Positions 59,369-62,888 of a stretch of 63,780 nucleotides of DNA are shown piece by piece. The notes beneath the pieces are model-generated. The model saw only the letters and a program-made list of their open reading frames with translations, ran no database searches and was not told the origin of the DNA. The DNA lies in NCBI RefSeq assembly GCF_000282575.1, contig NZ_AKJA01000153.1, positions 1-63,780 on the forward strand. The letters run 5' to 3'. How positions within the stretch are numbered: the first letter of the stretch is position 1; every line of letters starts with the position of its first letter. The DNA is from Herbaspirillum sp. YR522. GTDB taxonomy: Bacteria; Pseudomonadota; Gammaproteobacteria; Burkholderiales; Burkholderiaceae_D. The translations under genes were made by a program, and so were the position numbers.

Positions 59369-60073
59369 CTAGCGTAGGGGCTCCTGGATCTGTTGCTGCG
59401 TGCCCAGGCTGGCGCCGGTGCTGATGGCCTCGATGGCAGTGCCATAGGCATTGCGGGTGCCCAACCCGGTAGCGGCGAACGGCATGCCTTGCTGCAACGG
59501 CGAGCGCAAGCCATCCGGCGCGAACCGCACGATGCCGCCGTTGTCCAGGATCACGCCGTTGACTTCCCCGCGTGGTCCCGTCAGCACCAGGTCGACCCGA
59601 CCTTCGACATCGAGTTGGCGCAATTGTGCCGCCCGCAGGTGCGGCGGCAGCGGTGCGGCGCTGTCGATGCCGGGCGGCCGGTCGATCACCACCTGCCCGG
59701 TGGCCAGGTTGAGCAGCGCATCGGCCTTGACGCTGCGCCCCGGCTCGACCAGGCCGAACACCCGCACCACCTGGCCGGGTGCCACTGCGGCCACCACCGC
59801 GGCCGATAGATGCGGGGCCAGCTTGACCACCGTGCGATCGCGCATCAGCAAGCCATCGACTTCGCCATAGGGATTGATCAACAGCCGATCGACACTGCCT
59901 TGGGCCGCTGGCGCCTGGTTCAGCACGACCGCCCCGGGTGCGGCCGCGGCTGCCGCGGGTGGCGCCGGTTCCGCCGGCGGCAAGGCCCACGCACTGTGGC
60001 ACAGCAGCGCACCGAACAACGACAGGCCGGCGACGGCCTGGCGGGACGACGATGAACGAGCGAATTTGAACAT
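59369..60073 (-). CDS. Uncharacterised exported protein with tandem small domains, sigma-54 dependent
   Basis: 234 residues. Signal peptide (about 1-31, ending SAWA), an Ala/Pro linker (about 32-58), then two copies of a beta-rich module: VDRLLINPYGEVDGLLMRDR (about 61) and VDLVLTGPRGEVNGVILDNG (about 158). Each is followed by VKLAPHLS or VRFAPDGL and a G-Q/M-x-V/F turn, reminiscent of OB-like folds. AGGAG lies 5 bases before the ATG. A consensus -24/-12 promoter lies 37 bases upstream, after the genes for an NtrC-type activator and a kinase. No function is known to me. Confidence 0.8.
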   Translation of the reverse strand: MFKFARSSSSRQAVAGLSLFGALLCHSAWALPPAEPAPPAAAAAAPGAVVLNQAPAAQGSVDRLLINPYGEVDGLLMRDRTVVKLAPHLSAAVVAAVAPGQVVRVFGLVEPGRSVKADALLNLATGQVVIDRPPGIDSAAPLPPHLRAAQLRQLDVEGRVDLVLTGPRGEVNGVILDNGGIVRFAPDGLRSPLQQGMPFAATGLGTRNAYGTAIEAISTGASLGTQQQIQEPLR

Positions 60074-60109
60074 GGCAACTCCTGGATGTGATGACAGCAG
60101 TTCACCTCC

Positions 60110-60126
60110 AGCAAGCAATATGCCAA
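60110..60126 (-). promoter_or_regulatory. Sigma-54 (RpoN) -24/-12 promoter
   Basis: Minus strand TTGGCATATTGCTTGCT. It has the invariant GG and GC 10 bases apart and matches the core TGGCA-N7-TTGC. A start about 12 bases downstream (near 60099) leaves a leader of about 26 bases with AGGAG before the ATG at 60073. Confidence 0.85.
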
Positions 60127-60176
60127 GAAAATAAGCCTTATAAATCAATGCCTTGGAAAGTTCGGCACAGGCATGC

Positions 60177-60211
60177 TGTCCGCCATGGCGACACCGTGAC
60201 GTCCGCAGGAC
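60177..60211. promoter_or_regulatory. Candidate upstream activator sites for the NtrC-type regulator
   Basis: Two dyads lie 50-100 bases upstream of the -24 element: TGTC-C-GCCATGGC-GACA (60177-60193) and GTCC-GCA-GGAC (60201-60211). That is about -80 to -110 from the predicted start, the normal enhancer distance for sigma-54 activators. Confidence 0.45.
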
Positions 60212-60222
60212 GGACACCCGGC

Positions 60223-61560
60223 TCAATGGAGCCCGTGTTCGTCCAGCTTGCGATAGAGCTGTTGGCGCGAGATGCCGAGCCGGCGCGCGGCCTCGGCGCG
60301 GTTGTCATCGGCCGCGGCCAGCGCGCGCCGGATCATGGTCCGCTCCACCTGCGCCAGGACCTGGTCCAGCTTGCCGTCCCAGGCGACTTCCACGCTGTTG
60401 CCGATGGGCGGTACCGTCGACAGCGCCAGGTGTTCGGCGCCGATGCAGCGCCCCTGGCTGAGCACGGCGGCGCGTTCCATCTGGTTGCGCAGTTCGCGCA
60501 CGTTGCCGGGCCAGGCATGCGCCAGCAACTGCCTGGCCGCGTCCGGGCCGATCCGCTTGGGCGCATCGCCGCCCAGCAGGCGCAGGAAATGCTCGGCGAT
60601 CTGCAGGATATCGCCCGGGCGTTCGCGTAGCGCCGGGATGGTGATCGGCAGTACCTGCAATCGATACCAGAGATCTTCGCGAAAGCGGCCCTGCCGGATC
60701 TCTTGCGGCAGGTCGCGATGGGTGGCGGCGACGATGCGCACGTCCACCGGCGTGAGCCGGTTGCCACCCAGTGGCATGACCTCGCGTTCCTGCAGCACGC
60801 GCAGGATCTTGGCCTGGGTCGCCAGCGCCATGTCGCCGATCTCGTCGAGAAACAGGGTGCCCCCATGGGCCTCGACAAAGCGGCCGGGGCGTGCCGTGCT
60901 GGCGCCGGTGAAAGCGCCCTTGACGTGACCGAACAGTTCGCTCTCGATCAGTTCGGACGCCATGGCGGCACAATTGACCGCCACGAAGGGCCCGTTGGCA
61001 CGCCCGCTGTTGCGATGCAGCGCCCGGGCCACCAGCTCCTTGCCGGTCCCGGTTTCGCCCAGCACCAACACGGTGGCGTCGCTGGCAGCGGCCCTGCCCA
61101 CCTGCTTGAATACCTGGCGCATCGCTTCGCTGTTGCCGACCAGCTCGTGCCGGTCGGCCGGTGCGCCGGCCGGCGCCGGCGGCAATGCCGGCTCGGCCGC
61201 GCTCGTTTGCTGCAGCAGGCGCGCCAGCGTCTGGACCAGGGTGCTGCGCGCCACCGGCTTGGTCAGGTGGTCGAATGCCCCCAGCCGCATGGCCTCGATG
61301 GTATTGTCGCCGCTGGCATAGGCGGTCAGCATGATGCAGGGAAGCGGCGCCAGGGCCTGCGCCCGGCGCATGAAGGCAAGGCCATCCTCGCCCGGCATGC
61401 GCAGGTCGACGATGGCAGCATCGACCTGGGTGCGCCCCAGGCATTGCAAGCCGGCCTCGGTGCTGGCTGCTTCCAGCACCCGGTGACCGAGGTCGCACAG
61501 CACTTCGGCCAGGCCGCTGCGAAAGGCGGCGTCGTCGTCGACGATCAGGATGCGTGCCAT
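60223..61560 (-). CDS. NtrC-family sigma-54-dependent response regulator
   Basis: 445 residues in three parts. The receiver has phospho-acceptor Asp52 in AAIVDLRMPGEDG and Lys in HLTKPVARSTL. The AAA+ core has Walker A GETGTGKE, the sigma-54 contact loop GAFTGA intact and Walker B GGTLFLDEIGD. A Fis-type helix-turn-helix (NRAEAARRLGISRQQLYRKL) ends the protein. It activates RNA polymerase-sigma-54. The start overlaps the kinase stop by 16 bases. The sigma-54 promoter immediately downstream is its likely target. Confidence 0.95.
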   Translation of the reverse strand: MARILIVDDDAAFRSGLAEVLCDLGHRVLEAASTEAGLQCLGRTQVDAAIVDLRMPGEDGLAFMRRAQALAPLPCIMLTAYASGDNTIEAMRLGAFDHLTKPVARSTLVQTLARLLQQTSAAEPALPPAPAGAPADRHELVGNSEAMRQVFKQVGRAAASDATVLVLGETGTGKELVARALHRNSGRANGPFVAVNCAAMASELIESELFGHVKGAFTGASTARPGRFVEAHGGTLFLDEIGDMALATQAKILRVLQEREVMPLGGNRLTPVDVRIVAATHRDLPQEIRQGRFREDLWYRLQVLPITIPALRERPGDILQIAEHFLRLLGGDAPKRIGPDAARQLLAHAWPGNVRELRNQMERAAVLSQGRCIGAEHLALSTVPPIGNSVEVAWDGKLDQVLAQVERTMIRRALAAADDNRAEAARRLGISRQQLYRKLDEHGLH

Positions 61561-62888
61561 GGCAACTCCATGTCAAAGCGTGCGCCGGCATCGGTACCGG
61601 CCAGCACGATATGCCCGCCATGCGCCTCGACGATCTCGCGCACCAGCGCCAGGCCAAGCCCGGTGCCGCCGACGCGGTCGCTCACGAAGGGGTCGAACAG
61701 GCGCTGCCGCAACGCCGGGGCTACCCCGGGGCCATCGTCGGCGATCCATAATCCGAGACGATCGCCTCGCAGGCGCCGCGCGCCGATCACGATCGTCCCA
61801 CCGGCCCGGCAAACCGCCAGGGCGTTGAGCAACAGGTTGTCCAGCGCGCGCCCCATCTGCAGCGGATCGAGCACCACGGCGCCGACGCCATCGGCAAGGC
61901 TGGCCTGGTCGATCTCGAGCTCGATCTGCACGCCGCCGCGGGCGGCGGCTTCTTCGTGCATCTGGCGCCGCTCTCGCAGCCAGTCGCGCAGATCGATGCG
62001 CTGTGGACGGACATGAAACGGTTGCCCCAGCGCCAGCAGGCTCGACACCAGCGTCTCCAGTCGGGCAGTCTGTTCCAGTACCGCCTCCAGCGCACCCGAG
62101 ATGCGGGCTGGCCGCAATTCGGCCGGCGCGGCCAGGGCATTTTCAGCCTTGATGCGCATGGTGCCGACGGGATTGCGTATTTCATGCGCCAGCCCGGCCG
62201 CCACCCGCCCCAGCGTTGCCATGCGCTCGGCCTGGGCCAAGCGCGCGGCCAGCCCGTCCGACTGGCGCCGCCAGCGCGCCAGCGTCCATCCCAGCCAGAG
62301 GCCGGACAGCACGACGAACCCCAGCAACAGGCAGGTCGACCAGACCAATTGTTCGAGTACCCGGGCGCTCATCAACGGCACGCGCTTGAGGGTCCATGCC
62401 ACCGGAGCGCCGGCGGTACCGGCGAGACCGGCGACGGGGCAGGCGGCAAACACCATCGATTCACGCAAGCCGGGGCGCACATCCGTCACCAGGGCCGCGC
62501 CATTGGCCGCGCGCTGTGCCGTGGCGACGATACGTTCCAGTTCGGCGCTGGGCGCGTCACGCTTGACGCCGCTGCCGTCGTAGGTCGGAAAGGCATAGGC
62601 ATACACGCCCCGGCCATCGTCCCAGAAACCACCCTCCACGCCTGGCTGGTCACGCAGCGCCAGGTCGATCACCGCCTGGGCGGCGGCAACGCCGGTGACC
62701 CGCACACGGGTCGCGTCGGCGCTCATGGCCTGGCAACTCAAGCCGATCTGCCGGCTGGCCTGTTCCACCTGTGCGGCGGCGCCCTGCCGACTGAGCTGCA
62801 ACAACAACCAGGCCAGCACCAGCGCGATGAGCGCAATGAAGGCCCAGAGAATCATCAGGTCGCGTTTGATGGTGTGCTGGCGTTGCAC
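61545..62888 (-). CDS. Two-component sensor histidine kinase
   Basis: 447 residues. TM1 (about 10-31), a periplasmic sensor region (about 32-175), TM2 (about 177-200), HisKA with phospho-acceptor His in AAGLAHEIRNPVG (about 235), and an HATPase domain with N box NLLLNAL, DDGPGVAP and GGTGLGLALVREIVEAHGG. GTG at 62888 was chosen because AGGAGG lies 5 bases upstream. It is translationally coupled to the NtrC-type regulator. The periplasmic domain is not a recognised family, so the signal is unknown. Confidence 0.92.
   Translation of the reverse strand: MQRQHTIKRDLMILWAFIALIALVLAWLLLQLSRQGAAAQVEQASRQIGLSCQAMSADATRVRVTGVAAAQAVIDLALRDQPGVEGGFWDDGRGVYAYAFPTYDGSGVKRDAPSAELERIVATAQRAANGAALVTDVRPGLRESMVFAACPVAGLAGTAGAPVAWTLKRVPLMSARVLEQLVWSTCLLLGFVVLSGLWLGWTLARWRRQSDGLAARLAQAERMATLGRVAAGLAHEIRNPVGTMRIKAENALAAPAELRPARISGALEAVLEQTARLETLVSSLLALGQPFHVRPQRIDLRDWLRERRQMHEEAAARGGVQIELEIDQASLADGVGAVVLDPLQMGRALDNLLLNALAVCRAGGTIVIGARRLRGDRLGLWIADDGPGVAPALRQRLFDPFVSDRVGGTGLGLALVREIVEAHGGHIVLAGTDAGARFDMELPWHAS

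Follow-up and report, generated by a model that had tools for sequence, protein, structure and literature searches.

A sensor kinase, an NtrC-type activator, a predicted sigma-54 promoter, and genes for a secreted protein and two transporters stand together on the minus strand of a 63,780-nucleotide (nt) stretch of Herbaspirillum sp. YR522 (contig NZ_AKJA01000153.1, positions 1 to 63,780; hereafter, the window), and we consider that they probably form a sigma-54-dependent two-component envelope-response and efflux module whose periplasmic component is a tandem OB-fold protein, here called T. The two halves of this reading differ in strength: we are highly confident of the regulatory half, in which the kinase and activator would act on the sigma-54 promoter of T and the transporter genes, and we lean slightly toward efflux or envelope protection as the output. 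The sensor and activator very probably switch on the neighboring genes, which encode an exported protein of two domains and membrane transporters, the module may protect the cell envelope, and it is apparently a conserved, undescribed unit of several bacterial groups.

The regulatory link, which an earlier reading of the sequence alone (the sequence-only reading) had proposed, now draws strong comparative support: the -24/-12 element is conserved, as are the dyads above it at mostly fixed spacing, the sensor and T are present in identical sets of genomes, and the dyad pair is rare in the genome.

Gene order, promoter, and dyads

The four elements described in the sequence-only reading are all present, in the order kinase (61545..62888), activator (60223..61560), -24/-12 element, and T (59369..60073), and are followed by genes for a DUF486/DMT_6 protein (58934..59281) and an MFS protein (57702..58937), all on the minus strand. 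The activator gene starts inside the end of the kinase gene, with 16 nt shared, and the nearest named locus is that of Herbaspirillum sp. alder98 (T, 68%; DUF486, 96%). Not mentioned in the sequence-only reading are the two transporter genes and, described below, the pair of dyads and an IHF-like site. Across the loci compared, the kinase and activator genes travel with one predicted promoter, bearing one or two dyads, that precedes T and same-strand transporter genes.

The promoter (TTGGCATATTGCTTGCT, 60110..60126, minus strand) was recognized by pattern match and by its conservation among relatives. The strict pattern TGGCAYN5TTGCW occurs once in the window (TGGCATATTGCTTGCT at 60125-60110) against 0.19 expected; taken within the window alone, this match suggests mild significance, and conservation supplies the rest. 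A -24/-12 element (GG and GC kept, score of at least 10 of 13) starts 41 to 80 nt above the start codon in 29 of 34 upstream regions (300 mononucleotide shuffles: mean of 0.13, maximum of 2), a count in which most T start codons were picked with the promoter motif in view. The element, near consensus as first described, has GG-N10-GC in a -24/-12 context at a conserved position and is, on these grounds, a predicted sigma-54 promoter. The five regions that lack it (L numbers denote loci) are L005, L006, L007, L037, where the motif sits 149 nt above the annotated start, and L047, an orphan T. In L005 to L007 (L058 to L060; three genomes of one family), TGGCACG and the dyad are intact, and TTGAG or TGTGAG replaces TTGC.

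Above the promoter in the window are two 17-nt enhancer-like dyads of the form TGTC-N9-GACA, 23 nt apart: the proximal one (TGTCGCCATGGCGGACA, 60177..60193, minus strand; 8/8) begins 67 nt above the -24 motif, and the distal one (TGTCCGTCCTGCGGACG, 60200..60216, minus strand; 7/8) begins 90 nt above it. Measured against 100 dinucleotide shuffles, a dyad of at least 7/8 is found in 32 of the 34 upstream regions (shuffle mean of 2.97, maximum of 8), a perfect dyad in 26 (mean of 0.08, maximum of 1), and at least two dyads, some off the standard spacing, in 16 (mean of 0.14, maximum of 2). We compiled a table of 40 loci, which leaves out L026 (contig begins inside T), L042 (no signal peptide and no kinase), L047 (the Methylocapsa plasmid locus with the orphan T), L088 to L091, which were found later, and same-genome duplicates. 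A dyad was found in 39 of these 40 loci, and the total of 60 dyads falls largely into two positions: 29 begin 66 to 69 nt and 26 begin 89 to 91 nt above the -24 motif, the remaining five beginning at 99 (twice), 107, 108, and 130 nt. The dyad-pair pattern occurs at only 2 places in the 5.1-Mb genome. The second of these (C132:21231, in L074), a site itself without annotation, was taken as a chance occurrence because the first 600 bases of the locus read, by eye, like dnaJ.

Between dyads and promoter lies an IHF-like site (CAAGGCATTGATT, 60143..60155, minus strand) that fits the IHF consensus YAANNNNTTGATW at 9/9 positions. A 9/9 site is present in 24 of the 40 loci (mononucleotide shuffles: mean of 0.05, maximum of 1) and one of at least 8/9 in 28 (mean of 0.83, maximum of 6), nearly always 28 to 29 nt above the -24 motif. 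It accompanies the promoter in Herbaspirillum, Pseudomonas, and related loci; the 12 loci with scores below 8 are L056, L057, and the Burkholderia, Caballeronia, Paraburkholderia, and alphaproteobacterial plasmid loci (L037 to L041, L043 to L046, and L048).

In ten of 13 other loci of the same genus (L061 to L067, L069, L070, and L072), some 3 to 10 kb foreign to the module separate activator and T, and there the proximal dyad and promoter remain with T and the distal dyad drops below 7/8. Because they stay with T upon separation, the proximal dyad and promoter are elements of T rather than of the activator gene's end. Likewise, in Paraburkholderia L046, where the kinase and activator genes lie downstream in the opposite orientation, T is still accompanied by dyads and promoter. 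The intervening cargo varies (Herbaspirillum L016, L019, L020, and L024, in which T's proximal dyad and promoter are kept) and by eye includes an SMR-type transporter, an AraC/GlxA-type regulator, short-chain dehydrogenases, an acetyltransferase, and a LysR-type regulator. Within 350 nt above the kinase gene, there was no perfect dyad and no -24/-12 element in any of the 17 loci examined, from which it follows that the kinase/activator pair probably does not activate itself in this way.

Joint distribution and encoded proteins

A search for co-occurrence, as the sequence-only reading had suggested, bears out the association of T and sensor. Among 34 genomes of the genus, T is present in 14 and the kinase sensor domain in the identical 14, on the same contig in all of them; the probability of identical sets would be 7e-10 if genomes were independent, which they are not. 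In an order-level sample of 399 genomes, T matches occur in 12, seven at E values of ≤1.1e-26 and five short or weak (7.6e-5 to 9.1e-4), and the sensor is found in exactly the seven strong carriers. The class-level sample yielded a T match in 1 of 369 genomes, the genome studied here, and the phylum-level sample in 9 of 398: five already known, L088, in which kinase and activator adjoin T and two perfect dyads and a -24/-12 element are present at larger spacing, and L089 to L091. In these large samples, the best few candidates (7 or 8) per genome were scored, so that absences are no proof. Beta- and alphaproteobacterial plasmids also carry T relatives (20 of 72,556 records, 12 of which were fetched), and the module is represented in beta-, gamma-, and alphaproteobacterial records, plasmids among them. 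When sequences are compared in pairs, the identities of the kinase, activator, T, and MFS proteins correlate (r, 0.81 to 0.94; 15 sequences each), those of DUF486 less well (r, 0.38 to 0.80; 10 sequences).

The kinase (447 residues, GTG start) consists of a first transmembrane segment, a periplasmic domain at about residues 33 to 180 (by eye), a second transmembrane segment, and HisKA and HATPase_c domains matched by Pfam models; before residue 226, where the sequence-only reading saw an unassigned periplasmic domain, no Pfam model matches at an E value of ≤1. Two periplasmic cysteines, Cys52 (codon at 62733..62735, minus strand) and Cys150 (62439..62441, minus strand), are invariant in all 40 aligned sensors, including that of Acidiphilium L040, which has lost several otherwise conserved residues, and we infer a disulfide or a thiol/metalloid site. 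The activator (445 residues) matches Response_reg (PF00072), Sigma54_activat (PF00158), and HTH_8 (PF02954) above cutoff, with Asp52 and GAFTGA visible in the translation. It therefore has the receiver with its phospho-accepting aspartate, the AAA+ domain with GAFTGA, and the Fis-type helix-turn-helix of a complete NtrC-type enhancer-binding response regulator, in line with its initial description.

T (234 residues) carries a signal peptide of the Sec type (by eye), a Pro/Ala-rich linker, and two mutually similar beta-rich modules, much as the sequence-only reading had described; the fold, which that reading regarded as unknown, was addressed by structure prediction. Both modules are modeled with high confidence as OB-folds (residues ~52 to 126, 59696..59920, and residues ~147 to 222, 59408..59635, both on the minus strand), and the predicted OB barrels would place T in the OB-fold superfamily. 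At the sequence level, T matches no Pfam model at an E value of ≤1 (the OB-fold family BOF, or YgiW/YdeI, included), no NCBIfam model at ≤0.1, and no PDB sequence at ≤10. BOF proteins are absent among the 50 matches listed in the structure comparison, which is no evidence against kinship with them. DUF5666 was rejected as an identity for T after PF18914 found no match in the entire genome at an E value of ≤0.01. Second T-like copies or part-copies stand beside T in L056, L058, L059, and L060, and in loci of Burkholderia, Caballeronia, Paraburkholderia, and Bradyrhizobium, the gene after T encodes another tandem module, one that by eye lacks a signal peptide. A tandem-OB-type protein, again without a signal peptide (by eye), is encoded on a Caballeronia plasmid beside a FadR/GntR-type regulator and without a kinase (L042:6974-7507).

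Output of the module and rival explanations

The DUF486 protein (115 residues, 58934..59281, minus strand) is a small DMT_6 membrane transporter by profile match, and the MFS protein (411 residues, 57702..58937, minus strand), whose start overlaps the DUF486 stop at GTGA, matches PF07690 and PF12832 above cutoff. MFS genes are on the strand of T in 35 of the 40 loci. In 34 of these, the gene lies downstream of T, from which DUF486, a T-like gene, or as much as about 1 kb may separate it; in L038, it comes after the activator. DUF486 adjoins T in 19 loci, and a CitMHS/ArsB-like transporter is found in 10 (a fragment in L037, on the opposite strand in L041); our searches never found the two together in any of the 40 loci, which have flanks of unequal length, and this tally excludes a weak match (25%) in L058. 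An assignment of DUF486 as a sulfonate exporter was rejected, as the available text of PMC11968277 concerns DUF4867 and the names share only a prefix. In Pseudomonas donghuensis, a protein with HPP transmembrane and CBS domains is encoded shortly after the MFS gene (L029:8123-9295).

We prefer export over uptake mainly because of L057, in which an efflux-type pump takes the place of the MFS protein: an HlyD/MacA-like gene starts at the T stop codon (TGATG), and a MacB-like gene is next. In the mechanism that we propose, the periplasmic sensor with its invariant cysteine pair would detect an envelope insult, the phosphorylated activator would bind the dyads as an oligomer as IHF bends the DNA, and sigma-54 RNA polymerase would then transcribe T, DUF486, and MFS. 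The MFS protein would export a harmful compound, and periplasmic T would bind either the compound or some damaged component of the envelope, which it would hand over or shield against. A bolder version, to which we give rather little credence, is that of a mobile thiol-sensing sigma-54 module in which secreted T, as a periplasmic partner of a new type, serves interchangeable inner membrane exporters (MFS, MacAB-like, CitMHS/ArsB-like, and DUF486), with a cytosolic tandem-OB twin in some lineages.

Several points weigh against an envelope-response and efflux module of this kind. T homologues exist with no kinase or activator nearby, which realizes in part the situation that the sequence-only reading had named as refuting: in three of three genomes of one distant genus (L089 to L091), T lies beside F-type ATP synthase genes (a gene scan that covered L089 and one gene of L090), with no kinase, activator, perfect dyad, or strong -24/-12 element in the 15- to 16-kb stretch around it, and the Methylocapsa plasmid (L047) carries an orphan T. 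The MFS gene was not found in L040, L056, and L057, and is on the opposite strand in L041; the contig of L034 ends too early to tell. The MacAB-like replacement is a single case, the sole PDB sequence matching the MFS protein at an E value of ≤0.01 is a weak one (NorA, 0.0039), and CitMHS/ArsB-like or DUF486 partners could fit uptake equally. As to the promoter region, Bradyrhizobium L039 is the sole locus of the 40 without a dyad, and the regular spacing in the table was favored by its construction, in which dyads were sought only 41 to 130 nt above the promoter and a lower-scoring promoter candidate with a dyad was preferred over a dyad-less best one. The shuffles, moreover, overstate significance because the loci are related.

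Of the rival explanations, nutrient import fares best, and we regard it as unlikely. Here, the kinase would sense a periplasmic organic anion, the MFS protein (with the CitMHS/ArsB-like or DUF486 protein) would import it, and T would be the binding protein. The CitMHS/ArsB-type transporters of 10 loci speak for import, as does DctBD, in which a two-component system and sigma-54 control dicarboxylate uptake, but no catabolic gene recurs (by eye) in eight annotated plasmid neighborhoods, L057 has a MacA/MacB-like pump and no MFS protein, and T, as modeled, is unlike a solute-binding protein.

Somewhat less probable still is that T is mainly a feedback regulator of the kinase, which would bind the sensor domain and hold it off until titrated by envelope damage. 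The logic would be that of ZraP, which one title cited in the available portion of PMC4987338 calls a ZraSR repressor; the same genomes carry T and sensor, and kinase and T identities correlate (r, 0.92). In some loci, however, the second module next to T is without a signal peptide (by eye) and would have no access to a sensor in the periplasm, and T homologues also occur without a kinase nearby. The "one exported effector" of the sequence-only reading, a dedicated response to which the two transporters would not belong, we consider very improbable: T has its own strong predicted promoter, 87 nt separate it from DUF486, and the MFS gene was not found in 3 of 40 loci, but DUF486 and MFS genes recur with T, following it on the same strand in loci of Herbaspirillum, Pseudogulbenkiania, Zoogloea, Achromobacter, and Comamonas, with gaps after T of about 12 to 18 nt in L025, L028, and L031, and no terminator-like site is listed between T and DUF486 in the window.

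Two neighbors fall outside the module as we define it. A TetR-family regulator (Pfam TetR_N; 62966-63598, minus strand) lies immediately above the kinase and was rejected as a member, there being no match at an E value of ≤1e-3 in 35 loci, many of which end before the far side of the kinase. On the plus strand, 53887-57743 encodes, by eye, a small Tat-type subunit, a flavoprotein of the GMC type, and a cytochrome c bearing three CxxCH motifs, a set that resembles a membrane-bound sugar/alcohol dehydrogenase. Its last bases (to 57743) overlap those of the MFS gene, which converges on it and ends at 57702.

Relation to known systems

A literature search, whose coverage left out most subscription papers, found no publication describing this module. 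The claim of the sequence-only reading that no system of this makeup had been described holds for the exact parts and fails for the general design, since the literature already has a sigma-54 two-component circuit that acts on a periplasmic target, ZraSR-ZraP of enterobacteria: as set out in the available text of PMC4987338, it combines an envelope-sensing kinase, an NtrC-type regulator, a sigma-54 promoter, and a secreted periplasmic product, all features shared with the module. In that account, ZraR drives divergent zraSR and zraP promoters, whereas no perfect dyad or -24/-12 element stands above the kinase here in 17 of 17 loci. The activator reaches 378.8 of 760 bits against ZraR and the kinase 135.7 of 479 against ZraS, far short of the equivalog cutoffs; T, without a Pfam match at an E value of ≤1 and modeled as beta OB-folds, gives no sign of kinship with ZraP, which is helical, and here a row of transporter genes follows the target. 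The module thus works like ZraSR-ZraP yet is not a member of that system.

GlrR (QseF) recognizes TGTC(N)10GACA at glmY/glmZ, according to the same partially available source (PMC4987338), which makes the dyad nearly the same as ours, with N10 in place of N9. The activator scores 349.4 of 763 bits against GlrR, under the equivalog cutoff, and the targets of GlrR are small RNAs, whereas here they would be a secreted protein and transporters. In the accessible parts of PMC5636140 and PMC6370654, the two-component system VC1638/VC1639 induces the periplasmic OB-fold protein SipA (VCA0732; YgiW/YdeI/VisP, BOF family) in envelope stress, and thus shares with the module both a two-component system and a periplasmic OB-fold protein; SipA, as described there, is a 15-kDa protein, whereas T carries a pair of OB modules, matches no Pfam model, and has transporter companions. 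A comparative study that presents sigma-54 as a controller of the bacterial exterior (PMC3162934, available in part) shares this broad subject with our analysis.

Seen as a module, a kinase and an activator that were both anonymous and a Pfam-less protein become a single testable unit whose operator is defined. A simple reporter can reveal the signal, given that kinase, promoter, and target travel as a group, and the signal should in turn point to the transported compound. Psp is another sigma-54 envelope response, and if our reading is true, such responses would extend from ZraSR to a transporter operon.

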